Assembly (NCBI RefSeq): GCF_003626755.1
Contig: NZ_RBCJ01000007.1
Location: 1 to 57,414, forward strand
DNA: 57,414 nucleotides
Source: Ulvibacterium marinum
Lineage (GTDB): Bacteria > Bacteroidota > Bacteroidia > Flavobacteriales > Flavobacteriaceae
Direction of reading: 5' to 3'
The notes beneath the pieces were generated by a model, which did no database searches, had not been told where the DNA came from, and worked only from the letters and a program-made list of their open reading frames with translations. The translations under genes and the position numbers were made by a program. Position 1 is the first letter of the stretch. Each line of letters opens with the position of its first letter. Of this stretch, positions 1,770 to 18,400 are shown piece after piece.

Positions 1770-2235
1770 GGCAAGGTTTGGTTTTAGTACTAAATTGCTA
1801 TAAAAGTACAAAAATAGTGGGTAAAATACTACAAAACGAATTGGTTTTAGATGAAATGCAAGGGATTTCGATGGGAGGTCACGAAAATGACGAACTATGA
1901 AAAACCCTGCGTAACCTTTATATTAGAATAAGAACCGCTATAAAGGGCTTATAGATTGCGCCAACAATTTTGAGCAGTGTCAATTTGGAACCTTATTCGC
2001 TTCCAAAACCTTTTGCAATCTGCCTTAAAAAGCTATAAAAAGAGTAATAAACCAGAACAGGCCTTGGAATAAAGGCCTGTTCCTTTTGTAATGCATTAAT
2101 TATTATCTTACACTTCTAGAAAATTCACAACATGCCAATTTGGAACATTATCCTTCCCTAGTCTTTCAATTTCCCGGTTATGTCCAGCACACAATTAAAA
2201 CCTCACAGATTAGGGTCACAGCATTACATTATCTC
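1770..2235. other. Intergenic region with separator repeat 1
   Basis: No credible gene lies here. Bases 1955-2147 hold a diverged copy of the separator repeat seen throughout the toxin array, including the boundary motif CCAATTTGGAACA at the gene-F side (2135-2147) and a hairpin at 2055-2082. It marks the downstream end of the toxin/immunity array next to the surface-protein gene. Confidence 0.6.
1955..2147. repeat. Separator repeat 1 with hairpin
   Basis: Diverged copy of the toxin-array separator. A perfect 11-bp stem (GAACAGGCCTT / AAGGCCTGTTC, 2055-2065 and 2072-2082) is followed by CTTTT on the plus strand. Boundary motifs of the type CAATTTGGAAC lie at about 1981 and 2136. Confidence 0.65.
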
Positions 2236-2685
2236 TTATTCTTCAACACCAATAAGTTTTCGTTTGTTAAACTCTTTGATATAATCAGCCTTGGTGATAT
2301 TATCATTTATATAATCCTCCATAGTTTTACCCTGTAAAATTTTTGTGTATTCTGAACTCATTTTACCACCGGATATTTTTAAACTATTTCCTGAAACAAT
2401 AAACTCAAAACTAAAGATTGTATCCTTTTTGTTCTCTTCAAGGACGAACAATTTTCCTTCAGCTATTCGATAATAATTGGAAAATATTATCTCGTTAACC
2501 TCTTCCGAAAAAACATTAATTGTTTCGTCATCAATGAAGAGTTCAGTATGAATCTCAGAACTGTCATCAGATTCAATACTTTTCCAATTACCTAGAATGC
2601 TATCGTTTTCAGTTTTAACAACATAACTAATTGATATTAGAATTAATCCAATAATTATTATTGTTAATGCTCTTTTTAAACCCAT
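2236..2685 (-). CDS. Hypothetical membrane-anchored protein, orphan immunity candidate F
   Basis: 149 residues. An N-terminal hydrophobic segment (about residues 7-23) is followed by a beta-rich soluble part beginning with a GNWKSIESDD stretch, which resembles small lipocalin-like proteins that monitor or bind ligands outside the membrane. I recognise no family. It lies between separator repeats 1 and 2, on the same strand as the RHS cassettes, and has no toxin tip in front of it. Its place in the array suggests a leftover immunity gene, but that rests on context only. It could equally be an unrelated small membrane protein. Confidence 0.6.
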   Translation of the reverse strand: MGLKRALTIIIIGLILISISYVVKTENDSILGNWKSIESDDSSEIHTELFIDDETINVFSEEVNEIIFSNYYRIAEGKLFVLEENKKDTIFSFEFIVSGNSLKISGGKMSSEYTKILQGKTMEDYINDNITKADYIKEFNKRKLIGVEE

Positions 2686-2715
2686 ATTAATCTTTTATTT
2701 TGTTCTAAAAGTTTT

Positions 2716-2840
2716 TATGCCAAGCGCCAATGGAACACTTTTCAGTTCCAAGGCCTTGTTTAATGGGCCAGAAAAACCTATCAAAAAAGGCGATAACCAG
2801 AATAGGCCTTGATTACAAGGCCCATCTTTTTTATGATTCA
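2716..2840. repeat. Separator repeat 2 with hairpin
   Basis: Second diverged separator. It carries the boundary motif GCGCCAATGGAACAC (2724-2738), the conserved CAAAAAAGGCGATAA stretch, and a hairpin at 2799-2826 (AGAATAGGCCTT / AAGGCCCATCT) followed by six T on the plus strand. Confidence 0.7.
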
Positions 2841-2902
2841 TTGATAATCAGTATACACCTTTAGAGAATTTGTTAAGGTGCTACTTTAGGACACTACCCA
2901 TA

Positions 2903-3271
2903 CTATCTTCTAGTAAGTACAACGTTTTTAAACTTTATCCTGTTTCTGTTTATCACTTCAAGTTTATGTTCTTTATCTGGCATATTCCCTGAGGATAATA
3001 TTTCTCCAATATCATCTGACTCATTACATTTTAGGTATACGCTTTGCCAGTTCAGCTCCCAAGAGCCTTCACATTTAGGGTTAGCATCTTGAGACTTTAT
3101 GGAGAACACAAAAGTATTATCAGGCCTTAAGTTTAGACTATAGCTAACACTAATAGTTTTGTTTGCAGTCTGCTTTTTATAAAATTCTCCCGCCATATCA
3201 GATTGTAAAATCTTTGATGCTCCACAAGAATACAACAAGCAAACAACACCTAAATGAATTAATTTTCTCAT
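2903..3271 (-). CDS. Small lipoprotein, orphan immunity candidate E
   Basis: 122 residues with a lipoprotein signal peptide (MRKLIHLGVVCLLYSC, lipobox Cys at 16). The mature part is beta-rich with a CEGSWELN stretch, typical of lipocalin-like lipoproteins of Bacteroidota. It should be anchored in the outer or inner membrane facing the periplasm. It sits alone between separator repeat 2 and the RAYT insertion, with no toxin tip upstream. Because neighbouring cassettes C and D also end in small lipoproteins, an immunity role is plausible but is inferred from position only. Confidence 0.6.
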   Translation of the reverse strand: MRKLIHLGVVCLLYSCGASKILQSDMAGEFYKKQTANKTISVSYSLNLRPDNTFVFSIKSQDANPKCEGSWELNWQSVYLKCNESDDIGEILSSGNMPDKEHKLEVINRNRIKFKNVVLTRR

Positions 3272-3399: not shown

Positions 3400-3962
3400 C
3401 TATCCCAAAAAACCAATATCACCTATTTCCAAAACGGTTTTATCCTCGGCAAAGTTTCTGGCACTACTGTATTTCCATTCTGTAGGCTCGGTAACAAAAC
3501 CTGATTCCACGGGGTTGTTGTGGATATAATCGATTTTTTGTTTGATGACCTTAGTACTCCATAATTCAATGGGTCTGTTATGGTGTTGCCAAAATTGATA
3601 CTTCGAAACATTGCCCTTTTTCTTGCCCGCTCTTTCGAACATTTGTAAAAGCCATTCCCTTCTACTTTCTTGTGGATTCCCTTCAATCGCCTTTACAACC
3701 TTTTTTGAAGTATGTTTCTTAAAATCACGTAATACCCCGGAGGGGTCCTCGTTCTCGGAACGAAAAACAAAATGGACATGGCTTGGCATAAAACAATAGG
3801 CATATAGTTCCATCCCATCCCTTTTTCCTTTCTACAATGATTGATACTCTCCGCCAGTATCTTGAAATACTCCTGTCTCGTAAAGACATCGATCCAATGG
3901 ATCGTGGCAAAGGAAACAAAATAAGCAGCCGAAGGATTATGGAATTTATAATTTCTACTCAT
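3400..3962 (-). pseudogene. REP-associated tyrosine transposase (RAYT), frameshifted
   Basis: Y1/HUH single-strand transposase of the REP-associated family, which acts on REP hairpins. The N-terminal frame (3962-3693, MSRNYKFHNPSAAYFVSFAT) and the C-terminal frame (3813-3400) are two pieces of one protein of about 186 residues. The HUH motif (PSHVHF) is in the second piece, as are the catalytic Tyr in KIDYIHNNPV and the conserved KYSSARNFA tail. The break lies at 3811-3820, where CATCC occurs twice in tandem. Removing one copy restores an uninterrupted frame through KEKGMELYAYCFMPSH. It is flanked by inverted REP hairpins at 3349-3369 and 4052-4072. As read it is inactive unless the shift is a sequencing error or is bypassed by the ribosome. 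Confidence 0.85.
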
Positions 3963-4051
3963 ACGTTAAAAATACGAAAGCCATGGAATTTGATTACAGT
4001 TCTTACAAATCTACGGTAGACTGCTTTGAGCAGTGGAAGAAAGCAATTTGA

Positions 4052-4072
4052 CCACCAGTCACAGACTGGCGG
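4052..4072. repeat. REP hairpin, right flank of RAYT
   Basis: Stem-loop CCACCAGTC-ACA-GACTGGCGG. Its reverse complement matches the left hairpin (CCGCCAGT...ACTGGTGG) including part of the C-rich lead-in (CCCCGCT), so the pair is an inverted REP doublet around the transposase gene. Confidence 0.75.
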
Positions 4073-4140
4073 GAGCGGGGAACCAAGACAGGCCCTGATT
4101 GCAGGACCCGTCATTTTTTAATCCATTGATAAACGAAATA
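4070..4140. repeat. Separator repeat 3 (partial) with hairpin
   Basis: Partial separator abutting the right REP. Hairpin 4087-4112 (GACAGGCCCTG / CAGGACCCGTC, imperfect) is followed by ATTTTTTAATCCATTGATAA, shared with separators 4 and 5. The side facing the RAYT element lacks the usual lead-in, as if the element had replaced it. Confidence 0.65.
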
Positions 4141-4200
4141 CAATTCTAAAGCTCACAAAATTTTCTATTCGGAAAAGCTACCGTTAATCACTAAGGATAG

Positions 4201-4647
4201 TTATTGAACAGTATCCTTTTCAAAAACAAATCCTGTTTCATAGTATATGTAAATCTTTTCCCTATACCCATTTCTTGACTTTTTCCATATTACGCTCGGC
4301 AATAGACTTTTATCCGGTTTATCCAAGATACTGTCAACCTGGAACATAAAACTATAATTTAGCCAGTTGGAAAATCTGAGAGTATTATCTGGTTCTTCTG
4401 ACCATTTACCTGTATTTTTCAAAATGGGACTTACTCCTATTCTAAAGCTAGATTCGTCCTTAAAAATTTGTTGTTTAAAAGTATTGTCTCTATTAATGGT
4501 CAAAACTTCCGTCTCATATGAGGGGTATTGGAATATATAGTTTCCATAAAAGTCCTTAGTGATTTTATCGGGTCTTAACTGCTTCCAACAAGATATGTTA
4601 GTAAAAAGAAGAACTGAAAAGGTAATTACTTTAATAAAGCGTTTCAT
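4201..4647 (-). CDS. Lipoprotein, immunity candidate D
   Basis: 148 residues starting at the ATG at 4647. An earlier in-frame codon at 4728 lies inside the upstream tip frame. The chosen start gives a clean lipoprotein signal (MKRFIKVITFSVLLFTNISC, Cys20). The mature part begins WKQLRPDKITKDFYGNYIF and looks like a small beta-rich lipocalin-like lipoprotein. The start lies 7 bases after the stop codon of the start-less toxin-tip remnant (4951-4655), the spacing expected of a toxin tip and its cognate immunity gene. Family not recognised. The immunity role is inferred from this arrangement. Confidence 0.65.
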   Translation of the reverse strand: MKRFIKVITFSVLLFTNISCWKQLRPDKITKDFYGNYIFQYPSYETEVLTINRDNTFKQQIFKDESSFRIGVSPILKNTGKWSEEPDNTLRFSNWLNYSFMFQVDSILDKPDKSLLPSVIWKKSRNGYREKIYIYYETGFVFEKDTVQ

Positions 4648-4957: not shown

Positions 4958-5479
4958 TTATTTTGATTTTGGAACTTTAGACGAACTAATTAGTTCGTCT
5001 AAAGTCATGTAGGAAGCATCCTTTATTAATCTTAAACACTTGGTCTCTTTATTTTCTAAAACAACCCACTCCGGGTAATTGGAGTCTATAAGTAAATTGT
5101 CAAACGTATAAAAACCGTTCTCAACCAAGTTTCTTTTCATTTTAAATTTTTCAGATTTCCCCAATTTTTTAAAATGAAACGTTATTCTAAATTCCGAGTA
5201 AATGTCAAAATCACTCGGTACGTCGTCTTCTTTTTCCATTAATGACGAAAAAGCGTTGATTCTATAACCCAAATAATCTTGATTTGAAGAATCGATAGTT
5301 ACTTTAACCAAATAGTTTATTTCTCTTAAATCATAATTACTCTTGAAATAATCTATATACCCATGTGTCGTGCTATAAATATCCAATGCACACTGTTCCT
5401 CTTTACAAGAGGCAAAAAACACCACCATTGGAACTACAGTTGCCAATATACATTTTCTAATACTCTTTCCAACCATCAT
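4958..5479 (-). CDS. Lipoprotein, immunity candidate C (partner of JAB-like tip)
   Basis: 173 residues with a lipoprotein signal peptide (lipobox VFFASC, Cys25 when counted from the first Met). No known family is recognised. The first Met lies 23 bases inside the 3' end of the JAB-like cassette (5457-6992), so the two reading frames overlap and are translationally coupled, as is common for C-terminal toxin/immunity pairs. A membrane-anchored immunity protein would be unusual for a cytosolic target. It may act in the periplasm, or immunity may not be its role. Confidence 0.65.
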   Translation of the reverse strand: MMVGKSIRKCILATVVPMVVFFASCKEEQCALDIYSTTHGYIDYFKSNYDLREINYLVKVTIDSSNQDYLGYRINAFSSLMEKEDDVPSDFDIYSEFRITFHFKKLGKSEKFKMKRNLVENGFYTFDNLLIDSNYPEWVVLENKETKCLRLIKDASYMTLDELISSSKVPKSK

Positions 5480-6926
5480 ATCGCGAATTTATGAAGTGAG
5501 GATATTTTGAATTTACCCCTCTGTTTCTGTTCGTTTTGTCTTCAGGACTAGGACGTCCATACCCCAAGTTAGGATTATTGCGGTCACCTGGATGGGTGTG
5601 TACCTTTGCAACCTTGCTTCCCAGAACATTTCCTGTGAACGCATCCTTTACTTCGGAGCTGTTTCTTGGACCTACCACATCTTTTGAAGAAGAGGAAGTA
5701 TTCCCTAACCATGGAGATATGGCCAATCCAGTACCCTCAACTTCTGGAGTATCAAATTCCCATGCACTTAGTTCTATTTCAGAACTAAAAGAAATAAACT
5801 CCATAACCTCTAGGCCTTCTTGTTCAAAACCTTCGTTAAATACCAAACCTTCATTTTGAATATCGTTTTCAGCAATGCCGTCTTCATCCAACTCTCCAGC
5901 AACATCCTTTATATTACTAGCCTCCTTAGAAAAAGTCTTTCTGTCACCGTCTTTTTTGAATTCAGCTTCACCATCATCATTTTGTTCCCAAGTACCTGTA
6001 TAAATAGTATCCGTATCATCATTAGTCTCCTTTAAAAGAACTAATGATCCAGTTTCTGTGTCTAGTCCATAGTCATCCAATAGACCTGATGGGTCTACCC
6101 TCAAAATCGGATTATTCTGTACAAAGTTGTACGGTGTCAGCCAATCTCGTTCTTCCGCTAGGGGGTCAATGGATATAAACCTTCCAATGGCTGGATTATA
6201 GTTCCTAAAGTCCATTTCATAAAAATCAAGACCTAATGATTCCTCTAACTCTACCCCTTGGAACTTCCATTTCTGCGCCGTGCTATTTCCATTGGGTGAA
6301 ATGACATCATTATATCCCTGATGTTTCAACCCATAGGGATAGTAATTGTTCTCCTCCACAATCTCCAACTGGCCGTTGTCATCCGTATAGCTCAACCGCA
6401 CGTTGCCTAAATGGTCCAGATATTGGTAGACATAGTCATACCCCTCGACTGCGCTCGGGGTGACATAACCCTCTGGATCGATAAAGTAGATCGGGTTGTC
6501 AAAGGCATAGTTGTAGGGTGAATGCCTACGCATCTGATCCGCCAAGGGATCGATGTTCATCCACCTACCCAAGGCCGGATCGTAGTTCCTGGCCGTAATA
6601 TCAAGCCATGCAAGGTCCAATTCATCCTGCTCTTCCTTCCCGCCATAACCGTACTTGTGGTTGCGGCCGTTTACCACACCATTGTACCCCATGTGCTTTA
6701 GCCCGAAAGGATAATAGTTGTTCTCTTCCCGGATCTCGGAAGTAGCTACACTACCATCTCCGTCATCGTCCGCAAAGGACAAACGGATATTCCCCAGATG
6801 GTCCTTGTACTGGTAGATATAGTCGTACCCTCCGGATCCGTCCGGCTCAATGTAGCCCTCGGGGTGGTTAAGGAACTGCAGATTTCCACCTTCATACACA
6901 AAATTACCTGCATAATCGGTTGTCAC
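5457..6926 (-). CDS. Orphan RHS cassette C: doubled core with JAB-like C-terminal domain
   Basis: The frame is open from 6992 (after an in-frame TGA at 6995-6993) and the first start-like codon is a GTG at 6926, giving 489 residues. It begins in the middle of the RHS core (VTTDYAGNFVYEGG) and lacks a signal peptide and N-terminal domains. A first core ends DPALGRWMNIDPLADQMR, then NPIYFIDPEG runs straight into a second core (PEGYVTPSAVEGYDYVYQYL ... YNPAIGRFISIDPLAEERD). The C-terminal tip shows the JAMM/JAB pattern H443-T-H445-P, S460 and D463 (HTHPG...RPSPED) and ends SRYDGWKEY, matching JAB-like toxins of polymorphic systems (isopeptidase or metalloprotease-like). Immunity candidate C overlaps its end. 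It is probably silent unless recombined into the full-length RHS gene. Confidence 0.75.
   Translation of the reverse strand: MTTDYAGNFVYEGGNLQFLNHPEGYIEPDGSGGYDYIYQYKDHLGNIRLSFADDDGDGSVATSEIREENNYYPFGLKHMGYNGVVNGRNHKYGYGGKEEQDELDLAWLDITARNYDPALGRWMNIDPLADQMRRHSPYNYAFDNPIYFIDPEGYVTPSAVEGYDYVYQYLDHLGNVRLSYTDDNGQLEIVEENNYYPYGLKHQGYNDVISPNGNSTAQKWKFQGVELEESLGLDFYEMDFRNYNPAIGRFISIDPLAEERDWLTPYNFVQNNPILRVDPSGLLDDYGLDTETGSLVLLKETNDDTDTIYTGTWEQNDDGEAEFKKDGDRKTFSKEASNIKDVAGELDEDGIAENDIQNEGLVFNEGFEQEGLEVMEFISFSSEIELSAWEFDTPEVEGTGLAISPWLGNTSSSSKDVVGPRNSSEVKDAFTGNVLGSKVAKVHTHPGDRNNPNLGYGRPSPEDKTNRNRGVNSKYPHFINSRYDGWKEY
6441..6463. repeat. In-frame dispersed short repeat inside cassette C
   Basis: The segment CCCCTCGACTGCGCTCGGGG encodes PSAVEG in the second RHS core. 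The TCGACTGCGCTC core is a dispersed near-palindromic repeat I know from other Flavobacteriia genomes. The homologous position in the full-length RHS reads PGAIQES, so it looks like an in-frame insertion or replacement. Confidence 0.45.
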
Positions 6927-7195
6927 AGAACTTCCGTCGGTAACCGTTTTTTGTAATTTGATACCGTTGGCGTCGGGAATACCATTAGGATTTCAAAGAA
7001 CTTTTACGAGATGAATGTCAAGCGCCAATTTGGAACACCATGCAATGCCAAAGCCTCATTTAATGGTCTCTAAAAAGCTACCAAAAAGGCGATAGACAAG
7101 GACAGGCCTTTATTATAAGGCCCGTCCTTTTTATAATCCATTGATAATCAAGTTATACTTATAATAAATTTACAAAAGCGCCAATTTGGAACATA
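6480..7195 (-). repeat. Direct repeat copy 1 (core start plus separator 4)
   Basis: About 710 bp matching 8362-9077 at a constant offset of 1882 bases without indels. The separator part is identical over about 170 bp. Differences cluster toward the low-coordinate end (core end), where this copy is closer to the full-length RHS gene than to cassette B. Confidence 0.85.
7016..7193. repeat. Separator repeat 4 with hairpin
   Basis: The separator is bounded on both sides by the direct repeat GCGCCAATTTGGAACA (7023-7038 and 7178-7193). The hairpin at 7099-7128 (AGGACaGGCCTT / AAGGCCcGTCCT) is followed by TTTTTATAATCC on the plus strand, opposite to the direction of the toxin genes. Confidence 0.8.
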
Positions 7196-7218
7196 ACCGA
7201 GATTGACTTATTATCGCA

Positions 7219-7686
7219 TTAAGCCCAACTTTCCAACCTCCAATTATTCTCTAAATTTTCTATCAATAAAGTATCGTTCCATATACCCCAGGGAGATATT
7301 TTTTTTTGTTCTGCGGTCAGTACTTCAACCGACTCCCGTTTCCAAGTTTTAGAATCGATAATTTGCCATCCGCTATCAAACATATGTTCTGTTCTGTAAT
7401 ATCGGGGACAAGAAAAGTCTTTGGGCAAGGGAACATTTTCAACAAAACTCACAATCTTCTTTTTGTATGCTGCGCTCAAGGGAAAATCAACATAGTAAAA
7501 TTCCTCCGATATTACATCTTTGATTGTTTTAGGTTTCTGCTCTAGTAAATGATAAAAAACCTTAACTTTTTCAACCTCTGAGGTGTCTTTGGGCAACTTT
7601 ACGCACTGTAAATATCCCTTGCCTTTAGATGTTTCTATTTCAAAAACATCTCCTAATTCTAACTTCTTTTTTGTCATTGTAATCAT
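7219..7686 (-). CDS. Immunity protein B (Imm26-like), partner of GIY-YIG tip
   Basis: 155 residues, cytosolic, no signal peptide. The N-terminus LELGDVFEIETSKGKGYLQC resembles the G-D-V-F-x-I...G-x-G-x-x-x-V pattern of the Imm26 immunity family, though I could not run a profile search. The ATG at 7686 directly follows the TAG of the GIY-YIG cassette (7689-7687); an alternative ATG lies at 7677. This tight pairing, and the cytosolic location expected for neutralising a nuclease, support an immunity function. Separator repeat 4 follows. Confidence 0.7.
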   Translation of the reverse strand: MITMTKKKLELGDVFEIETSKGKGYLQCVKLPKDTSEVEKVKVFYHLLEQKPKTIKDVISEEFYYVDFPLSAAYKKKIVSFVENVPLPKDFSCPRYYRTEHMFDSGWQIIDSKTWKRESVEVLTAEQKKISPWGIWNDTLLIENLENNWRLESWA

Positions 7687-8808
7687 CTATTTAATCCCAA
7701 CTGTTTCTAATAATTCATAGCCTCTTTTAAGAGCCGCCGCATATTTAGGGTTAGTTTTAGCTATGCTATTTATCTTATTCAGTAACTGTCCTGTCTGACC
7801 TTCTTTGCCTCCCAATTTATAAATTTCAATCAGTGCTTGTTCTACTGCACGCGCATCCGCTTTAGTTAGATTTTTCAGTAAAGGCTCTATTATAAAGCCT
7901 CTAGTCCTTAGGTGTTCAGCAGCTCTTCTAGCGAGATTATTAGTGATTCCTACATATCTGAACCCTTTGGAGCCTTTAACAAAATAAACAATGTATTTCG
8001 CAGTATTTTTTATTCCTCCGATAAGTGGAGAGATTTCAAATTCTTCAACATCTTTGCTATATTGGAGTACAAAACCTTCTGGTAAAGTTTCTAATGAGCT
8101 TGAGAAAAGGTCGTCAATTTCTAAATATCCTCCTTCTGAGTATTTTTTCCCTTTTTGCTCTTTCCCAATAACATTTTCAGCACTTCTCTCATTCAGATAA
8201 ATATTGTCATCCCCATCGTCCTTATAATCTATTATTCTACCTGTATCATCAACTACCGTGGAAGTAATATGTTGCGGTCCAAAATCCGTTGCACCAATGA
8301 AGTCATGATTATCATCTTCATTTAATTCGTCTGTTGCATAAGGTGCCATCCCGTCCGGATCTATATAAAATATCGGATTGTCAAAGGCGTAGTTGTATGG
8401 CGAATGTCTCCGCATCTGGTCCGCCAAAGGATCTATGTTCATCCACCTACCCAAAGCCGGGTCATAGTTTCTAGCCGTAATATCAAGCCATGCCAGGTCC
8501 AGTTCGTCCTGCTCTTCCTTGCCGCCATAACCGTACTTGTGGTTGCGGCCGTTTACCACACCTTTGTACCCCATGTGCTTTAGCCCAAAAGGATAATAGT
8601 TGTTCTCCTCCCGGATTTCGGAAGTAGCTACACTACCATCTCCATTGTCATCCGCAAAGGACAAACGGATATTTCCTAAATGGTCCTTGCACTGGTAGAT
8701 ATAGTCGTACCCACCGGATCCGTCCGGCTCAATATAGCCCTCGGGATGGTTAAGGAATTGCAGATTTCCACCTTCATACACAAAATTACCTGCATAATCG
8801 GTTGTCAC
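7687..8808 (-). CDS. Orphan RHS cassette B with GIY-YIG nuclease tip
   Basis: 373 residues from a GTG at 8808. The frame is open from 8874, just after an in-frame TGA, so there is no natural start or signal peptide. Residues 1-150 are RHS core (VTTDYAGNFVYEGG ... DPALGRWMNIDPLADQMR ... NPIFYIDPDGM), nearly identical to cassette C. A linker follows, then a GIY-YIG endonuclease domain at about 272-373: VYF near 275, YVG at 285-287, Arg at 294/295, Glu323 and Asn344 are the expected catalytic residues. GIY-YIG tips in polymorphic toxins cut nucleic acid. The Imm26-like gene follows with no spacer. It is likely a silent cassette that becomes active when recombined onto the full-length RHS gene. 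Confidence 0.8.
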   Translation of the reverse strand: MTTDYAGNFVYEGGNLQFLNHPEGYIEPDGSGGYDYIYQCKDHLGNIRLSFADDNGDGSVATSEIREENNYYPFGLKHMGYKGVVNGRNHKYGYGGKEEQDELDLAWLDITARNYDPALGRWMNIDPLADQMRRHSPYNYAFDNPIFYIDPDGMAPYATDELNEDDNHDFIGATDFGPQHITSTVVDDTGRIIDYKDDGDDNIYLNERSAENVIGKEQKGKKYSEGGYLEIDDLFSSSLETLPEGFVLQYSKDVEEFEISPLIGGIKNTAKYIVYFVKGSKGFRYVGITNNLARRAAEHLRTRGFIIEPLLKNLTKADARAVEQALIEIYKLGGKEGQTGQLLNKINSIAKTNPKYAAALKRGYELLETVGIK

Positions 8809-9077
8809 AGAACTTCCATCGGTTACCGTTTTTTGTAATTTGATACCGGTGGCGTCGGGAATACCATTAGGACTTCAAAGAACTTTTATGAGATGAATGT
8901 CAAGCGCCAATTTGGAACACCATGCAATGCCAAAGCCTCATTTAATGGTCTCTAAAAAGCTACCAAAAAGGCGATAGACAAGGACAGGCCTTTATTATAA
9001 GGCCCGTCCTTTTTATAATCCATTGATAATCAAGTTATACTTATAATAAATTTACAAAAGCGCCAATTTGGAACATT
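8362..9077 (-). repeat. Direct repeat copy 2 (core start plus separator 5)
   Basis: Partner of 6480-7195, offset 1882. The shared core and separator give a long homologous substrate that would let cassettes B and C exchange, be deleted, or duplicate. Confidence 0.85.
8898..9075. repeat. Separator repeat 5 with hairpin
   Basis: Same structure as separator 4: flanking GCGCCAATTTGGAACA copies (8905-8920 and 9060-9075), hairpin 8981-9010, and a T-run on the plus strand. Confidence 0.8.
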
Positions 9078-9116
9078 ACCCCCCATGAGGATGGCTTTGC
9101 TTTAAAAAGTTTAATC

Positions 9117-9545
9117 CTAATTTGCAAGACCGTTTAACCGCTCTATGTCTTTTAACAATTTACTGTCACTAGAAGCAAATTCCCAAAAAGAAGAATCGCA
9201 AAGTTCCACAATGTATTTTGGAGCTTTTAACGAACCATTCTTATAATTCTCCAAATTGTAAGATTTTATTCCCTCTTCTGTATCTCCTCCTATTAATAAT
9301 AGGTTGGTTAATTGAACATTAGGGGGCGTAAGCTTCTGTAGAAAAGAAGAATCAACAAAAACTCCAGAGCTCTTATTTATATCATTTTCTAGCTTTTGCA
9401 TAGGGGTTGCTTCAACTTTACCAAATCCGTCTATCCACAATATTTTCCAGTAAACTTTGTTGGAAAGCTCTACTTCATTAATAATATCCATTAAACCGAT
9501 GTTTAAAATACTATTAGAAGTCCCATTTAATTTGATCTTTTTCAT
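9117..9545 (-). CDS. Immunity protein A, partner of the full-length RHS toxin
   Basis: 142 residues without signal peptide or membrane segment, so cytosolic. Family not recognised. The sequence starts MKKIKLNGTSNSILNIGLMD and has a mixed alpha/beta character. It begins 6 bases downstream of the stop codon of the 1954-residue RHS protein and is followed by separator repeat 5, the usual place for the cognate immunity gene of an RHS C-terminal toxin. The role is inferred from position. Confidence 0.65.
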   Translation of the reverse strand: MKKIKLNGTSNSILNIGLMDIINEVELSNKVYWKILWIDGFGKVEATPMQKLENDINKSSGVFVDSSFLQKLTPPNVQLTNLLLIGGDTEEGIKSYNLENYKNGSLKAPKYIVELCDSSFWEFASSDSKLLKDIERLNGLAN

Positions 9546-9551
9546 AATTAA

Positions 9552-12500
9552 TTATTCTTCTAAAGGTTCTGCTTTTCCTCTTTGTTGGGTACCCCCTGTC
9601 TGACTTTCATTGTATTTATGCTGATGAGGGTTTGAATGTTCATTTGGTCGACCATGATCAGTAAAATCAACATCCCTGACAGGTTTTCCTTCTGAATCAA
9701 ATTCCCTTGCCTGTTTATAATTACCATTTCTTCCTTCTTTAGTTCCAAGTTGGGTATGTGACGTGCCTTCCGCTTCGGGATCGGGTTTTGGCTCGCCATT
9801 TTTATCTCTTCTTAAGGAATCATTACTTGTTCTTTCTGAATTTGACGAGCCCTTATTGGAATCGGCCTTCATGTTATCAATGGTGTTGCTCATCGTATTC
9901 ACACCAATGGCCGTAACAGCTGCTCCGACAGCCATGGTCGCACCACTTGCAGCTGCTCCTGGACCACCAACGGGAGCACCTACGCCAGTAGTGGCCACCG
10001 CAGCGGATGCCACAAGACCGGCACCGCCCGCTGCCGTCATTCCACCTCCCTCTATTGTGGTTATCACCGAGATAGCGATTGAAGTCGAATGACCTGCAAT
10101 CCTACCGGACCTGAACTCTTGCGATCCCGTATCGTGTTTATTCCTGAGATTGGTCCCGAAAACGTTGTCTGAAATGGTCAAAAGGAAACCTTTTGCACGA
10201 TCGCAGCAACCTTGGGGCTTCATACCGTCAGGATCCGCAAAATAAATAGGATTGTCAAACGCATAGTTATAAGGTGAGTGCCTACGCATCTGATCCGCCA
10301 AGGGGTCGATGTTCATCCATCTACCCAAGGCCGGATCGTAGTTCCGTGCAGTCACATCGTACCACGCCAGATCCATGTCCTCTTGGTACTCCTTACCGCC
10401 AAACTTCCAACGCTGGGCCACATCATTACCTAAGGCGGAGACATTACTATTATACCCCAGGTGTTTCAACCCGAAGGGATAATAGTTGCTCTCTTCCACA
10501 ATCTCTAACTGTAAGTTTTCGTCCATATAGCTCAACCGTACGTTCCCCAAATGGTCCACATACCGGTATACGTAATCGTAAGACTCTTGTATTGCGCCTG
10601 GTGTAACGTAGCCTTCCGGGTGGGAGAAAAACTGTAAGGTGGTACTGGTGGCATTGCCCTCATAGATGTAGTTTCCACTATATTCAGTATGTACTTCAGA
10701 ACTTCCCTCGGTCGCAATCTTTTTCAATTTCACGCCCGTGGCGTCGTAAATATAGGCAATTGTTCCGTTATTTCCGTTACCATTCACCACAATAGTTGTA
10801 GGAAGGTTTAGATGGTTGTAGGAAATGGAGGTTATCCCCTTATTGGCGTCGCTAATCATATTTCCGTTATCGTCATAGGTATAGTCCGTTCCAGTGGGGT
10901 TGCCGTCCAAAAAGCCGGTATCTACCGTACTGATGTCCGTTACCGTCTGTAACTGGTTGCCCGTATATTGGTAATCCAGATTGTCCATGGTGCCAAAATC
11001 GGCGCTACCGCTCGGGTTGGCCACCAGGTTCCCCTTCCGCATCAGTTCGGTAATATTTCCGTTCTTGTCATACCGCACATTGGTAAGGCTATACCTGTTG
11101 TCTGTTGTATCGTCCGTGGCGGACGTTATGCGGTTCAACGCATCATAGCTATAGGTATAGGCCGTACTTACCGTATTACCACTTGGATTGGGGCTTTGGC
11201 TATTCCATTCCGTTCGGGAAATATTGCCGTTGTACAGCTTTTTGCTCGTGTCCGCAATATCATTGTACTGTAGCGCAAAACCATAGAGTTGGCTGCCCAG
11301 ATTGCCGGGATCATTGATCTGCTTTAACCAACCCAGCACGTTATAGGTATAGGCTACCTGTTGCAAGCCCGTGGATTGCAATACATTGGCCTGGCTGTCC
11401 CCGCCTACTTTTTTCTGTTGCAACAGCCCCAGATCATCATATGCGTTCAGTACTATCAGTTCCTGCCCTCCGCTTACGGCATTGGGGTCTATTCGCAAAT
11501 GGGCGCCGGGCAAGAGGGTGGCATTGGTAACCGTAATACTGGTACCGGCCACCTGCTCGGTACTTACCGTAGTTCCGGTAAGGCTCAAATCGGCCGTTCC
11601 CCCACTACCTGGGCAGGAATCGCCAAGCGTCCCGTCACCGATACATTGGGTCTGGGCCAAGAGGCGACCTACATGGTCATAGGTATAATTATCGATTGTT
11701 ACGATCGTGGTACCGTTCTTGGTATGGGCACTCCGCATTTTTTGGGGCCTACCGGCAAAGTCCAGCTGGGTCTCAACGACATCTATGGCATTGAGGTATT
11801 CGTTTTCGCCATAGGTATAGATCGGCCGTGCCTTGTCATCATAATAGGTAAGGGTAACAATCCAGTCGGCCTGTCCTGAGCCCGCCGAAGGATCCAATAC
11901 CTTTACCTTGGTCACCGTGGCCAGACCTTTTACCTGGGTGGTATTGGTCGCTACACTTCCCAAAAGCGTGACCGAGGCAGGTGCACCGGTGGGCATATCG
12001 ATATTGGCATAGCTATCATAGTAGCTTATCGTCAAGACCTCTGTACCGGTGCTGTTCGGATAGGCGCCATTGTCATAGTAGATTTCTACGTCATCGGTAA
12101 AATTGGCGTTCTGGTCCGAAGTCTGTCGGCTTACCCAGAGGTCACCGGAAATACCTTCGGCATCGGTCTGTACCTCCGTACGTGTTTTGGCCGTACCCCC
12201 GTTCATCTCAATAGCCTTACCCGTATAGGCCACGCGGCCAAAGGCATCGTACTTGGTAAAGAGCCATTCCCCAGTAGCCCGCTGATTGGCATCCTGGGTC
12301 ATTATGGGGCGGTCCAATTTATCATAGACGATGTATTCCTTTTCCTTGCCCGGCAGTTGTTTTTCCACCAAACGGTTACGATGGTCATACACATAACGGT
12401 AACCCAGATCTGGCATCGCCGTATTGATGATTGCAAGGGTGGCCGTACTGCCTTCCATCTCCGGGGTCAATACAAAACTGAGATTGCCATAATCGTCATA

Positions 12501-15416
12501 GATATAATAAGTATCATGGGTGGTAGTCTCCGGAGTGGGGGATCCGGAAACGGCATAATGTCGCCTAAGCAAGATACGGCCCTGTTTGTCCTTAAATTCT
12601 TCGGTGGTATGCAATTTGGAACTGGTACCATCATGATTTTCGTCCCGGGTTATGGTCTTGCTCAACTCCCGTACCGGATAGTAACCGTCCTCCACCAGGG
12701 TGGGCGTATAGGTTTTGGCGGCAAAAGCCAGGGTGACCTTAAAACGGCGGACCTCATTGGCCACATTGGTCTGGTAGGCCAGTTCTTTTTCATGGCCGTT
12801 GCCCAATTTCCAATCCTCCCCGGGCATGGCCTGTTTGTCCACGCGGTTCAAGGGCGAGGCCTCATAGCCCTGCTGACCAAAGGGGTTGATGTCCGCCACA
12901 TTGATGCCTACGAAATCGTCGGCATAGCGGTTCTTGTAATACTGTTTGGTCAACGCTTCCACATTGCCGAAGCGGTAACTTCCCAAGGTACTGTCCGGTT
13001 CCAGGAAGGGCAGCCATTCCTTGTCCTGGCGGCCGTAATCGTCATAGCCCATATGGGTGATGATGTCCAAACTGTCCGGGGACTGGCGAATGGCATTCTG
13101 CTGCATAGGCCGTCCCAGCCCATCAAAATAGGTGATGTCCTGAATATAGCCATCATCCTCCAAAAATTTGGCGTTGGGTACGGCACCGGCCCGTTCCACT
13201 TGGTAATTCCGGGTATAGATATAATTCTGGTCCGCCAATTCGGTAGCGGAACAAACATTGCCCGGCGAATAGAAATTGGGACACTGATCCAGGGCATTGC
13301 CCACATAACCTGCGGGAGGGGTACACAATACCGCACTGGCACTACCGGAATCCCCCAGGCCGTCCTCATCCAAATCCTCATACCATATCCGGGCATCCTG
13401 AATCAGTGGGTCGTTGTCATCGCAATCGCCCATAGGGAGTATGGCATAGGTATAATCAACACCCGGGCTGGTACAGGAAACCTGGGAAGAAACGGCATGG
13501 TCGTCATTGTCCGCATCCAAATACCAGACTGTATCCGGGTTTATATACTGGTTGTCATCATCGCAATCGTCCAACGGAAGTACGGTTTGGGTATAGCCGG
13601 GACCGGGATCGTTGCAGTCCACCGTGGTGGAAACGGCATGCTCATCGCCATCGGCATCCAAATACCAGGTAATCCCGGTGGTGATGGTGGCGGTAATGGG
13701 ATGTTTGGTCCCCGCAAAACATTCCGTTTGCGTATGATAGCTCTCCGCATAATAGATAGTAGTAGCACTTATGCTGGGAGTGGTATAGGTCAGCCCAGTA
13801 GCCAGATAGTTGTCGCCGGAATCATACCAACGGATGGTATTGCCATGCTGGCCTGGAGTAGCACTCAACGTGAAGGTGTTGGTACCACATTTGCTTTCGC
13901 CATTGCCCGAGGCCACCAATGGAATGGGATCAACTCGTACACTAATGGGCTGCCTTACCACGATATTCGTAGGACAACCGAAGGAGTTCATCAAGGTACC
14001 GTCCACATAATAGATCTTTTCGCCGTTTACATCCATATCGGCATAGGTCAAGGTAGGTTGAAAACTAGCCCCTACATGTACACTAGATCCCCCAGTGACG
14101 GATTCGTACCAATTGTAGGTACTGCCGGCCTCCCCGCCGGTGGCGGTCAAGGTAAAGGTGGCCGATCCACAGATATCCATGGCGGCCGGGGAATCGTCTC
14201 GAAGATTTAGGGTCCGTACATCCGTTTGGTCGCTATAGGTGGCGGTAACCTGTTCCCGTGGGCCGATACAGCCGTCGTTGTTGCGTACGGCCACCCAAAA
14301 ACTCTGGGTCTGCGCCGTAACCGTATAGGACGTCCTATACTCTCCCACCTGACTCACGATCTGGGGGGTGACCGTTCCGGAACCGGTGGCACTGGTATAC
14401 CAGATATGCGCATCGGTGGTACCGGTGCCGGATTCCGCTTCTAGAACAATGGTATCATCGCATTGATTACTTGCATTTGTAACGAAAGGAACAGAAGGGA
14501 GGGCATTGATCATTGCCGTTACGTTTCTTTTGGTCCCCTCGCAACCGTCCACCAGTATGCTTACCTGATAGGTGCGGGTACTGGTTATGGTCCCCGTGGA
14601 AAAGGTACTTGACGAACTGGTCTGGGCAACACTTCCATTGGGATTGTACCAACGGTAGGAAGCTCCCGAAGGGGCACCGCTCGCGGTAAGGTTGAAGTTG
14701 GTGGGGCCGCAGTCCTCCACATCGGAGGCGTTCGGGGTGGGTACGGGATCCTTGAAGCTTACCGTAATGGTCTTGGTCTCCGTGCGGGTACCACTATAGC
14801 AGTTGGTACTGGTCATAGTGGCCCTTACCCAAAAGGTGGTATCCCCGTTGCCGCTGTAGGTCAATGTGGGGTTATAGCTACTCCCCGTATGTACCGGGGT
14901 ACCCGAGGTGTTGGAGGTAGTGTACCACCTATAGGTACTGCCACTGCCCCCGCCCCCGGCACCGATGTTGAAGGTGGCCGTAGGACCACACTGTTCCCCG
15001 CTGTAGTTCAGCGTTAGCGAGGGTGGAGTGGTATCCGGGGTGATAAAGGTGACCTGCACCTTGGTCCGAGCGCTCTCCTGGCCGCTACTGTTCCGAGCTG
15101 CCACCCAATAGGTGCCGCTTTGGGTCATTGTTTTTTCCGTTGTATATAGCGTAGTCGGAAAACCGGGCACTACGATATCATGTGATGCCGTCTGGCTACC
15201 GGTCTGTGTAGTATACCATTTGTGGGTAACTATACCTCCTGAAAAATCGTTTTTATTGGAGGTCACGGCAAGCTTTCTACTCGAGTTACATCCATTGGTC
15301 ACATTTGCCGTACTTGTAGTCGGTGCCGGGGGGGTTTGGGAAAAGCCAAATGCACTGATCATCACAGCGATTAAGAACATCTGGTATTTACATGGGAACT
15401 GAAATAAATTCTTCAT
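9552..15416 (-). CDS. Full-length RHS/YD-repeat polymorphic toxin
   Basis: 1954 residues from the ATG at 15416. An in-frame start at 15482 lies inside the preceding gene and would spoil the signal peptide MKNLFQFPCKYQMFLIAVMI. Order: signal peptide; about seven 80-residue Ig-like repeats (to about 630, e.g. YRWYTTSNTSGTPVHTGSSY); three Asp-rich MopE/calcium-type repeats (WYLDADGDEHAVS, DDCDDDN; about 630-760); a DUF6443-like block (NYQVERAGAVPNAKFLEDDG); YD repeats; and a core ending DPALGRWMNIDPLADQMRRH. A 223-residue variable tip follows with a Gly/Ala-rich hydrophobic pretoxin stretch and an end motif DVDFTDHGRPNEHSNPHQH. That motif resembles the polymorphic toxin type 24 family, probably a nuclease (tentative). 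By analogy with RHS toxins the shell encloses and delivers the tip. Immunity gene A follows. Confidence 0.85.
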   Translation of the reverse strand: MKNLFQFPCKYQMFLIAVMISAFGFSQTPPAPTTSTANVTNGCNSSRKLAVTSNKNDFSGGIVTHKWYTTQTGSQTASHDIVVPGFPTTLYTTEKTMTQSGTYWVAARNSSGQESARTKVQVTFITPDTTPPSLTLNYSGEQCGPTATFNIGAGGGGSGSTYRWYTTSNTSGTPVHTGSSYNPTLTYSGNGDTTFWVRATMTSTNCYSGTRTETKTITVSFKDPVPTPNASDVEDCGPTNFNLTASGAPSGASYRWYNPNGSVAQTSSSSTFSTGTITSTRTYQVSILVDGCEGTKRNVTAMINALPSVPFVTNASNQCDDTIVLEAESGTGTTDAHIWYTSATGSGTVTPQIVSQVGEYRTSYTVTAQTQSFWVAVRNNDGCIGPREQVTATYSDQTDVRTLNLRDDSPAAMDICGSATFTLTATGGEAGSTYNWYESVTGGSSVHVGASFQPTLTYADMDVNGEKIYYVDGTLMNSFGCPTNIVVRQPISVRVDPIPLVASGNGESKCGTNTFTLSATPGQHGNTIRWYDSGDNYLATGLTYTTPSISATTIYYAESYHTQTECFAGTKHPITATITTGITWYLDADGDEHAVSTTVDCNDPGPGYTQTVLPLDDCDDDNQYINPDTVWYLDADNDDHAVSSQVSCTSPGVDYTYAILPMGDCDDNDPLIQDARIWYEDLDEDGLGDSGSASAVLCTPPAGYVGNALDQCPNFYSPGNVCSATELADQNYIYTRNYQVERAGAVPNAKFLEDDGYIQDITYFDGLGRPMQQNAIRQSPDSLDIITHMGYDDYGRQDKEWLPFLEPDSTLGSYRFGNVEALTKQYYKNRYADDFVGINVADINPFGQQGYEASPLNRVDKQAMPGEDWKLGNGHEKELAYQTNVANEVRRFKVTLAFAAKTYTPTLVEDGYYPVRELSKTITRDENHDGTSSKLHTTEEFKDKQGRILLRRHYAVSGSPTPETTTHDTYYIYDDYGNLSFVLTPEMEGSTATLAIINTAMPDLGYRYVYDHRNRLVEKQLPGKEKEYIVYDKLDRPIMTQDANQRATGEWLFTKYDAFGRVAYTGKAIEMNGGTAKTRTEVQTDAEGISGDLWVSRQTSDQNANFTDDVEIYYDNGAYPNSTGTEVLTISYYDSYANIDMPTGAPASVTLLGSVATNTTQVKGLATVTKVKVLDPSAGSGQADWIVTLTYYDDKARPIYTYGENEYLNAIDVVETQLDFAGRPQKMRSAHTKNGTTIVTIDNYTYDHVGRLLAQTQCIGDGTLGDSCPGSGGTADLSLTGTTVSTEQVAGTSITVTNATLLPGAHLRIDPNAVSGGQELIVLNAYDDLGLLQQKKVGGDSQANVLQSTGLQQVAYTYNVLGWLKQINDPGNLGSQLYGFALQYNDIADTSKKLYNGNISRTEWNSQSPNPSGNTVSTAYTYSYDALNRITSATDDTTDNRYSLTNVRYDKNGNITELMRKGNLVANPSGSADFGTMDNLDYQYTGNQLQTVTDISTVDTGFLDGNPTGTDYTYDDNGNMISDANKGITSISYNHLNLPTTIVVNGNGNNGTIAYIYDATGVKLKKIATEGSSEVHTEYSGNYIYEGNATSTTLQFFSHPEGYVTPGAIQESYDYVYRYVDHLGNVRLSYMDENLQLEIVEESNYYPFGLKHLGYNSNVSALGNDVAQRWKFGGKEYQEDMDLAWYDVTARNYDPALGRWMNIDPLADQMRRHSPYNYAFDNPIYFADPDGMKPQGCCDRAKGFLLTISDNVFGTNLRNKHDTGSQEFRSGRIAGHSTSIAISVITTIEGGGMTAAGGAGLVASAAVATTGVGAPVGGPGAAASGATMAVGAAVTAIGVNTMSNTIDNMKADSNKGSSNSERTSNDSLRRDKNGEPKPDPEAEGTSHTQLGTKEGRNGNYKQAREFDSEGKPVRDVDFTDHGRPNEHSNPHQHKYNESQTGGTQQRGKAEPLEE
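11871..11895. repeat. In-frame dispersed short repeat inside the RHS gene
   Basis: The minus strand carries GGATCCTTCGGCGGGCTCAG, encoding DPSAGSGQA between LTKVKV-like YD sequence and DWIVTLTYYD. The unit CTTCGNCNNGCTCAG recurs in many Bacteroidota genomes as a dispersed near-palindrome, so this looks like an in-frame repeat insertion (from general knowledge, not a search). Confidence 0.45.
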
Positions 15417-15450
15417 GATATTGGGGGTATGTTTTGTTATCGATTTGGTC

Positions 15451-18400
15451 TTAGTTGCTCTGGCCTTTGTAATGGTACTCATAGTCCGTCACCAGATGGC
15501 CATCGGCATCGCGCACCTCAACAAGGCGGTTGGCCGTATCATAGGTATAGGTCATGGTATAGCCCCTGGGGTCGGTAACGCTGGTTACACCCACAAGAGG
15601 GTTATAGGTATAGGTGGTTACCATGGCCTGTGGTAGTTCGGACCGTAGTTTTTGCAGCTCGGTCCGCATGGCGATATCCGTGGTGGCGGGATTATCAATG
15701 ACATTGAAATTCACCGTGGTCGCCAATGCCTGGGTATGAGTGGCATGTTCTATCTTGGCCACGGGGTATTTCCCATCATAGCCCCAGATGTAGGTAATGG
15801 TGGTACCGTCCTGTTTGGAGACTTCCAGGGGATTTCCCAAATCGTCATAACTCAAGTAATTGAGCCGCGTCTCCATGGGGTTGTTCGTAAGGTGGTAATT
15901 TCCCTTTAAGGTCTGTACCAACTCGGGCCATACCTTATAGGAATTGGGACCCGGAGCGGTATCCCAGTCCTTGTAGATCGTCCGTTGTACCGTTCTTTCC
16001 CCATTGATGGTGGTCTCGGTCTGTACGGGTTCGGCAATCCGGTGCAAAAGACTGTCTCTTTTTAAGCGATCAATCAACGCCTTTTCAGGAGCTGATAGGT
16101 CAGGACTGCCCAAAGAGCTTAGGGTAGTCACGTCATCCGGATAAAAGGTCTTGGTGATGACCTCCTCGCCTTTACTGTTGATCAGTTTACTTTCCGTACG
16201 CTGTAGATGCAGGGGATTTTCATACTTGAATTCCTGAAGGGTCACCAGGGAATCGATACCCTCACTGTTATAAATGGTCTCCTTGGTTCCCGTCTGTTGG
16301 ATCAGATTGGAATAGTGCGGATAGAGTTGAAACTTCATGGCATCGCAATAACGGTAAACCAGACCATCCTGGGTGATATCCGAAATGGGTAGTTCCTTAC
16401 TGGCACTGATTACCCGATCTTGGTTCTCGTACAAACGAAAAAGATTGAACTGACCACTAGTAATCCCATTGATTTCATAGGTATTTGCCATTTCACTGAC
16501 CAAGCTATAAGTACCTCCTACCCTCTTATAATTCTTTTCCGAAATTAAAAGCCCGTTATGGGGTACCCGTATGGGCGGAAACTTATGATAACTATCCTCG
16601 TATGCCGGTTGTGTCACCGATCTAAAATGATCCTGCTGGTTGTGAAAGGTTTTAATGGTCTTACCATTGTTGCCACCGGCACCGATTGTCGTTATCTCTA
16701 CTTTATCGTATCCTACATAGCCTCCTGCATCCTTTGAAAAGGCATTATGGGAGCTTGCCGTACCTAGAACCCGAGGCTGAAAACCGGTGGTTCCGTAAAA
16801 AAAACCGTTGGGATCGACAGAACTGTAACCCCGTACCGCTGTCTCATCAATGGCAAAATTGGGTAAGGTCTTGATCTTTCCATAGGACCGCTCCACTTCC
16901 AGATTGTTTTCAAGGGTCGTATAGTGGTAATTGTACATCCGTTTGATTTCCTCTGTACCGCTGCTGTCAAAATCGGTTATAGATTTTACCCGTAATCCAC
17001 CACCGATGGAGTACTGCTTATCAACGCTTATTTCTATGTCCTCCCATTGTGCATGAATATCTGCCATACCGTAATAGAGGCCATTGCTACTATTAAAATG
17101 AGCTTCGATTACATATTCTTGATCGGTCAATTGAAAATTACCGGCATTGACATCATAATACCATTCCTCAGTATCGGAATAGTTGATTACGGCTCCGTAG
17201 CCGGAGTTTTGCTCAACAGTTAGGTTGTCCCATTCCGTATTCCCAGTGGATATATGAAAACGTGGTCTGATCAAAGTACCGTCCAGCTTTTTAATCTCCA
17301 CATAAAAGTCGTTTTGAAAGTCTGGAGCAGGTGGCTTGCTATTACTATAGGCCCCAGAGGCATTCCATCCGGTTACCGTTACATTGTAGGTTAGTTTTAA
17401 GACCCCAAATTGATTGGGTTTAATGGTTATCCGCACGGTATCGTCAGTAGACTCTGGAGTTGAAACTACGGCCGCCCGTTGACTTACGGGTATTGTTGGG
17501 GTCGGGGCTTCATTAAAATTACCGGTATCAGCATAGGTATTCAGTTCATAATCAAATTCAGTAGATCCTTTGGTCGGATAGGTTATCTTTTTTAAACTGA
17601 ATGTTTTGGTGTGTTCCTCGGAAGGTAGCCTGTTGGCCTTTTTGTCCTGTACAAAAGTAGAATATTGGGTAAGATGACTATAGATGTACGGGATAAAAAT
17701 GTCCGAATTGAAAGAACCATTGTAAAAACCCCAGTAATCCTGACCCATGGTTGTTTTATTGGGGATGAAATTAGGTTGGAAGTACTCGAAAGAGTGTTGG
17801 CTAATATCATTTTCAATGACCGAATCCAGTTTTAGACGGAGATTCAGATCTGGATAATCACCGTTCAAAGCTCCTATCCTTTGGCCAAAATCACCATTTT
17901 GTAGCGATATGTTCTGATACTGGTAGGTCTTTTCGGAACCAAAATAGCTGTAATTAAAATTGTGCTTATTCACGGTATCGCCTACTGCATTGGTAGTTAT
18001 TATAGATTCCAAATATCTTCCATTGAGATCCTTCCGGTCAATAAGCGATGAGTAATTTAAAGCAGTAGTTTGTGTGCTTTGTCCGTCCGCCTTCTTTGCG
18101 GTAATGGAATCAAGATAAAAGTTATCCGTTTCCGTGATGGGACCGGAATAGCTCTCGTAATTTTTCGTAGGATTTGTAGTACCACCAGTGGTTGCCAAAT
18201 AGCTCTGGGTAAAAGAAGGGAAAGGTTTTGTTTTTTCGGTAGTGTCATAACTAAATTCGGCGGTGTTCCCATAGATATCCGTAATTTTTTTTAAAAACCA
18301 CGTGGAGATATACGTCTTAGGACTCGGCCCTGCGAGAAATGAGGTTGTTGCCCTTTCTGTGAATTCGTAAAGAGTACCATCTTCGGTTATTATGTTAAAG

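Follow-up and report, generated by a model that had tools for sequence, protein, structure and literature searches.

Displaced toxin–immunity cassettes behind an RHS gene of Ulvibacterium marinum and a candidate tip-swapping integrative element in its relatives

In this work, we analysed a stretch of 57,414 nt (the window) that forms the start of contig C12 (NZ_RBCJ01000007.1) in the 5.9 Mb genome of the flavobacterium Ulvibacterium marinum, where a full-length RHS toxin gene is followed by an array of core-truncated toxin–immunity cassettes. We consider it probable that the 3′ end of the RHS gene is replaced repeatedly, that this replacement is element-borne in relatives, and that the window cassettes go back to past displacement of this or a similar kind. 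From the sequences compared, displacement in the relatives looks site-specific and carried by an integrative element with two tyrosine recombinases, rather than being simple homologous exchange, while homologous recombination probably also acted in the window.

The RHS array of the window

The features that carry the argument are, from the intact gene to the second cassette:

9552..15482, minus strand: full-length RHS gene, 1976 aa, with Ig_7 repeats, DUF6443, RHS core and active tip (list of open reading frames (ORFs), profile search)
9117..9545, minus strand: putative immunity gene of the active tip, without a family match (ORF list, position)
8874..8883, minus strand: boxA-like GTTCTTTGAA, containing the in-frame TGA of cassette 1
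7687..8856, minus strand: orphan cassette 1, core from DATG plus GIY-YIG-like tip; ORF from GTG 8808
7219..7686, minus strand: putative immunity gene of cassette 1 (ORF list, position)
6992..7001, minus strand: boxA-like GTTCTTTGAA preceding cassette 2
5457..6977, minus strand: orphan cassette 2, two complete tandem cores (6827-6468 and 6440-6081) plus tip; ORF from GTG 6926
6468..6588, minus strand: tract in which cassette 2 switches from cassette-1-like to main-gene-like, pairing with main-gene positions 10344-10224 (121 nt)
4958..5479, minus strand: putative immunity gene of cassette 2, lipoprotein-like by eye, with a 23-nt overlap with the tip ORF (ORF list, position)

The NCBIfam model TIGR03696 (Rhs_assc_core) exceeded its cut-off for the main protein and cassette 1, and did so at two places in cassette 2, so that an RHS core precedes a variable tip as in RHS polymorphic toxins; the closest named RHS relatives of the window are from Flavobacteriaceae. 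Behind the intact gene and in the same orientation, the truncated cores carry other tips, and the array extends to about 1.97 kb through decayed cassettes, leftover ORFs and a broken RAYT-like gene. The original prediction of a complete RHS gene, its immunity gene and cassettes starting in mid-core, each with a following ORF, could be confirmed with respect to ORFs, stops and pairing by position, as could the opening of the cassettes just after in-frame TGAs (8877-8875 and 6995-6993). By eye, no signal peptide was seen in the window cassettes, as had been claimed. The toxin–immunity pairing itself is putative and follows from gene adjacency. With regard to the tips, the GIY-YIG assignment of cassette 1 is backed by a match at an expectation value (E) of 6e-4, which nevertheless lies below the Pfam cut-off (20.4 vs 22.6 bits); this tip also resembles the active tip of a full-length protein of Aquimarina longa (33% over 197 aa, E 7e-23). 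The JAB-like assignment of cassette 2 has no Pfam or NCBIfam match behind it, but an HTHP...SPED motif is seen by eye.

Cassettes 1 and 2 are 93% identical across 740 nt, spacer included. At the DNA level the main gene shares 74–76% identity with the cassettes across the greater part of the first core, and 80% with the second core of cassette 2, so that the predicted long identity to the full-length gene is confined to the one tract at 6588-6468. We compared the 168 informative sites at which cassette 2 agrees with exactly one of cassette 1 and the main gene. Agreement with the main gene was found at 13 of the first 146 sites and at 14 of the last 22, a shift equalled in 0 of 500 permutations, which makes it probable that part of cassette 2 was replaced with sequence of the main gene or of a close relative of that gene. 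The tract thus reads as a recombination footprint between cassette and main gene with a putative donor, and homologous tip switching within the window is possible.

A candidate integrative element in related genomes

The evidence for an element stems from related genomes, with one genome per species compared. In three loci (L066, L067, L100), the tip of an orphan led by a boxA motif is identical to the active tip (243, 277 and 234 aa), because a unit of 7.4–8 kb is tandemly repeated there. Gene conversion from a silent copy was considered for these loci and discarded, since tandem element copies account for the identical tips. The unit begins at the core junction, with 2.3–3.1 kb or more of the repeat visible, and contains in this order a core end, a tip, an immunity ORF, a helix-turn-helix gene on the opposite strand, an ATPase-like protein (508–525 aa), two tyrosine recombinases and a leader. 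The recombinases match Phage_integrase (PF00589) and, below all cut-offs, Xer and integron-integrase models. The designation ATPase-like is provisional, being taken from an AAA match below cut-off in one of two proteins; there was no NCBIfam match, one protein searched against PDB had no match there, and PHROGs gave two weak families.

Three junctions could be mapped in L067 and R38: host core to element, leader to a second element copy, and leader to another core and tip. At R38 the junction lies at or right after TTTGG of the NYYPFG codons, and the third tip has only a stretch of 33 aa in common with the copy tip. In the 4 loci with tandem identical copies, the third junction bears a different tip.

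For a broader count we used 32 stretches chosen for holding the ATPase-like gene, with 40 copies of at least 900 nt, tandem copies being counted apart. The second recombinase accompanies 37 copies and a boxA (at most one mismatch) 16. An RHS core lies within 9 kb upstream in 33 and within 5 kb downstream in 24; draft contigs end within many element loci, and 14 of the 16 copies without a downstream core have less than 2.5 kb of sequence left, while among the 7 copies lacking an upstream core, 3 begin no more than 1.7 kb from a contig end. Most downstream cores (17/24) start at profile positions 27–33, the NYYPFG site; other junction sites are YDTNGN (L066, L096), NYRYDALNR (L204) and NWYDYGAR (L253). 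Among 19 comparisons of active and displaced tips, in which the third tip of L067 is cut by the stretch end, 5 pairs, from tandem copies, match at 100% identity, and the other 14 are without similarity at E 1e-3. The 20 downstream frames start 82–94 aa before the core end in 18 cases and 52 and 171 aa before it in the other two, and a stop codon stands before the core in all 18 downstream NYYPFG-site frames (tandem copies again counted apart). In 7 of 14 loci, the frame of the upstream gene is open over 1018–2072 aa ahead of the core end; in the other 7 it is shorter or runs off the stretch.

The ATPase-like protein was found at E up to 1e-30 in 23 of 397 genomes of the family and in 24 of 287 genomes of the class (2 of them of the same family). 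Across 20 class stretches with 23 copies, which were likewise selected by the presence of the ATPase-like gene, recombinases accompany every copy and an RHS core adjoins 22 (17 upstream, 14 downstream).

As a separate observation, the element in L066 contains a ParE-type toxin gene (PF05016) with a small partner (17897-18426), possibly a stability module.

Start sites and leaders of orphan cassettes

We surveyed orphan starts in 79 named loci together with loci of the same genome and others. Orphan cores begin at few profile positions, mainly near DATG (the window, L043, L055, L085 and others) or NYYPFG (L029, L043, L051, L052, L063, L067, L084, L100 and others), with few elsewhere. The motif GTTCTTTRAA occurs within 200 nt upstream of 14 of 40 orphans exactly and of 19 of 40 with at most one mismatch, compared with 2 and 19 of 644 other ORFs, respectively, and 0.5% of random windows. 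Three of the 14 exact cases (L013, on contig C11 of the same genome) lie inside the coding core (FFEN) by reading and were discounted. This motif is identical to the boxA GTTCTTTAAAA that the available text of PMC7862264 gives for a CRISPR array of Legionella. In the window it stands 17 and 14 nt before the two cassette cores, so that both displaced cores are preceded by it, although these two are copies of each other.

We additionally scanned the 397 family genomes with the combined pattern TATATTTRCA-N2-24-CGTTCTTTRAA, in which the promoter part represents what we take to be the −7 box consensus (TAnnTTTG-like). Seven matches were obtained, 3 of them before tRNA genes and 3 directly before RHS core fragments identified by profile (L204, E 8e-24, which has the same sequence as the seed locus L081; L208; L209); the remaining match (L203) stands before a short YPFG remnant recognised by eye, and an RHS core fragment lies 1.4 kb upstream. 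The reversed-pattern control gave none among the matches listed. A relaxed pattern in 395 class genomes gave 8 matches against 1 for the reversed control: one precedes 16S rRNA, one a NusB gene and one an RHS orphan from a different family (L213, E 1.4e-14), and 5 are unassigned, 2 of them lying inside ORFs by reading. Judged by these matches, many orphans in relatives seem to have a promoter and boxA leader like those of tRNA, 16S and nusB genes. Folding of 6 orphan leaders of relatives was no better than that of shuffles, and a sigma-70 scan (32 promoter-like sites vs 23.4, standard deviation 5.1, in shuffles) was not used.

Independently of RHS, the combination of boxA and a promoter-like box directly before nusB in L214 suggests NusB autoregulation.

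Proposed model and competing explanations

We propose a model in which each replacement of the 3′ end pushes the old tip and its immunity gene downstream (C-terminal displacement). In the sequences of relatives, the element sits at a fixed codon site of the core, mostly NYYPFG, between active and displaced tip, and supplies in frame a fresh core end together with its own tip and immunity ORF; its two tyrosine recombinases presumably perform the insertion. The old core end, the old tip and the next ORF stand behind the right end of the element, which is the promoter and boxA leader. This leader may carry transcription past the displaced core and tip, which would stay untranslated, into their immunity gene, and the cell would therefore stay immune to siblings that have not switched. 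For the window, the model assumes loss of the recombinase part, perhaps via insertion of an IS1-family insertion sequence (IS) and deletion, followed by homologous recombination.

A wider formulation seems to us somewhat better supported than its negation: a Bacteroidia-wide family of elements would use RHS core codons as attachment site, switch the tip in frame and park the old pair, and a leader of stable-RNA type would, at least in Flavobacteriaceae, keep the old immunity gene transcribed. Several lineages and sites would exist, with the window being a fossil of a DATG-site lineage.

Several observations weigh against this picture, above all for the window. Neither the ATPase-like protein has a match in the window's genome or in two congeners, nor do the element recombinases have one in the window, which consequently lacks the combination of ATPase-like gene and two recombinases that marks the element. 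Its boundary site, DATG, is unlike any site seen with an intact element that was read, and arrays of the same boundary type in L055 and L085 are without boxA (0/8). A −7 box (TAnnTTTR) is absent within 45 nt upstream of the window boxA motifs, which also lie nearer to the core than in most element loci. At class level, boxA was found ahead of the downstream core for just 2 of the 23 copies (14 of which have such a core), and because of this the promoter and boxA leader may be a trait of only part of the element family. Finally, a third core could be the source of the mosaic tract. Descent of the window from such an element is a guess, because no element recombinase and no clear promoter are found there.

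As an alternative, with no dedicated element ever involved in the window, plain displacement and tip switching could have relied on RecA-type homologous exchange between shared cores, as described for the rhs genes of Salmonella. We regard this as somewhat less likely than not: it accommodates the mosaic tract shared by cassette 2 and the main gene, the 93% identity of the two cassettes over 740 nt and the missing recombinase match, and it has prior art in the accessible passages of PMC4927057. However, the core identity of 74–76% between main gene and cassettes outside the tract is poor for RecA crossing, and the cassettes begin at one site beside a boxA-like motif, which in relatives marks the element junction. 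The original prediction is borne out in part, for the displaced tip–immunity array and for the footprint between cassette 2 and main gene; tip switching by homologous recombination in this strain and silence of the cassettes are putative, and displacement in relatives looks site-specific and element-borne.

A further explanation starts from the spacers between the cassettes, of which the window contains five:

8891..9080, minus strand: E1, solo left end of an IS1-family element with a strong hairpin
7009..7198, minus strand: E2, IS1-family left end, 99% identical to E1
4027..4182, minus strand: E3, degraded IS1-family left end (E 5.7e-6)
2711..2898, minus strand: E4, IS1-family left end, about 75–80% identical to E1
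1964..2152, minus strand: E5, IS1-family left end at the end of the array

The spacer of about 190 bp is present in 5 copies on C12 (1 degraded) and in 1 copy on C10 of the same genome, and a spacer-type element occurs in 17 of 299 family genomes, with a match below 1e-11 in 7 of these. In 14 of 15 rows (L027 and L103 being one place), the closest ORF upstream ends at a distance of −4 to +84 nt from this element; in L046, the exception, the distance is 967 nt. Spacer-type sequence stands directly before an open transposase gene in L157, L159 and L046, and both transposase genes tested were confirmed as IS1 transposase (PF03400). Because copies precede IS1 transposase genes and some lie away from RHS cores, the window spacers are taken as solo left ends of an IS1-family element, whose first bases presumably resemble IS1 ends. 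These occurrences directly before IS1-family transposases and in non-RHS places also led us to reject the spacer as a purpose-built 3′ recombination anchor; a new structured RNA was rejected as well, the Rfam L20-leader scores (E 0.13 and 0.21) falling far short of the gathering threshold.

IS1-family insertions behind immunity genes could have supplied repeats through which cassettes were duplicated and deleted, leaving solo left ends. The punctuation of the array by five copies, and the position of copies elsewhere before PF03400 transposases, often behind RHS loci, speak for such a role. We nevertheless regard it as unlikely to be the origin of the array: IS ends leave the new tips unexplained, a match to the PF03400 transposase is missing from the window's genome, whose window copies are left ends only, and inspection by eye of the three transposase genes read showed no inverted right end beside them. 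In several genera, IS1-family transposase genes lie 1.6–3.1 kb behind an RHS core (L022, partial; L030; L064; L097), an arrangement that recalls the H-repeats behind E. coli rhs.

That the orphan cassettes are independently expressed small toxins rather than displaced leftovers is very improbable: open tip ORFs do occur in the two window cassettes and also among the displaced copies of relatives, where the leader should drive transcription, yet a stop precedes the core in 18 of 18 downstream NYYPFG-site frames, the window cassettes show no signal peptide by eye, and E. coli orphans are transcribed with no orphan toxin detected, according to the passages of PMC3150448 on hand.

Relation to known displacement systems

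Displacement arrays as such are already known, as the available portions of PMC2935791, PMC4927057, PMC5361080, PMC8125069 and PMC13183296 attest. How RHS and contact-dependent growth inhibition (CDI) tips are displaced without loss of the old pair has been a question since 2009, and two earlier papers, as far as their accessible text goes, state that no integrase was known to do this, while a third suspected site-specific recombination for CDI. The Rhs arrays of Enterobacteriaceae (Jackson 2009, PMC2935791) likewise carry core fragments with other tips behind an intact gene; compared with what the consulted passages describe, the relatives examined here add an integrase-bearing element, fixed core sites and a leader. 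In orphan cdiA-CT/cdiI modules (Poole 2011, PMC3150448; PMC4927057), the orphan toxin lacks a start while the orphan immunity gene is expressed. For the E. coli orphan cdi region, the excerpts of PMC3150448 report transcription, no detected orphan toxin and functional orphan immunity, and those of PMC4927057 mention genes for transposases and integrases within arrays of CDI orphans and suggest site-specific recombination. The transcript of CDI orphans continues from the main operon and these excerpts describe no attachment site or carrier element, in contrast to the relatives here with their own promoter and boxA leader and mapped junctions.

In the immunity arrays of the Vibrio cholerae type VI secretion system (T6SS; PMC5361080), a new pair displaces the old effector while the old immunity gene is kept, which the authors liken to integrons; in the passages available they state that there is no evidence for help by an integrase, whereas recombinases lie between new and displaced pair in the relatives studied here. 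The boxA leaders of rRNA and CRISPR arrays (PMC7862264, citing Stringer et al.) place the motif GTTCTTTAAAA upstream of a long untranslated RNA, according to the portion consulted; here it stands upstream of displaced toxin–immunity cassettes. Closest in taxonomy is the O. hominis array (PMC13183296), an RHS array in Flavobacteriia with many orphan tips, one of them shared across genera, to which the accessible text links no element, recombinase or leader. With this Ornithobacterium array of 26 orphan tips published, the earlier statement that such arrays are little described in Bacteroidota is about right. A literature search over titles, abstract openings and passages, with few subscription journals, found an RHS tip-swapping element or a boxA leader of orphans described nowhere among the matches listed.

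A recombinase-bearing element with mapped junctions makes the displacement mechanism directly testable. The element model would account for the many orphan starts at set core codons behind a stop; it further predicts that an antitermination leader of rRNA type keeps the old immunity gene active.

Further features of the locus

Beyond the two cassettes, the partner gene and the decayed remainder of the array comprise:

15451..19089, minus strand: partner RHS/SpvB-like ORF, 1212 aa, upstream of the main ORF with a 32-nt overlap (ORF list, profiles)
4201..4647, minus strand: lipoprotein-like ORF of a decayed cassette; inner ATG 4647 by eye, listed ORF start 4728 (position)
3400..3962, minus strand: broken RAYT-like gene (Y1_Tnp 22.8 bits vs cut-off 23; longest open piece)
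2903..3271, minus strand: lipoprotein-like ORF, perhaps a left-over immunity gene (position)
2236..2685, minus strand: ORF, perhaps a left-over immunity gene (position)

REP-like palindromes, recognised by eye, flank the RAYT-like gene on both sides. RAYT and REP were considered as a driver of displacement and dismissed, as they adjoin the array without a demonstrated link. The immunity ORF of cassette 2 carries at its 3′ end a perfect self-complementary stretch of 32 nt (4974-5005).

The same genome holds two further RHS loci with orphans, on C10 and C11. On C11 (L013, 106500-119000), about 5 copies of another RHS core family lie behind a 3423-aa RHS frame, while the locus on C10 (L012, 1900-13400) has one long orphan (589-aa frame) and one IS1-family left end. 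Core duplication is also seen elsewhere: the main gene of L063 contains an exact 912-bp tandem repeat of RHS core, split across two frames (11930-13763), and closely spaced split or doubled RHS cores, perhaps akin to the double core of cassette 2, occur in L080, L084, L297, L302, L303 and L305.
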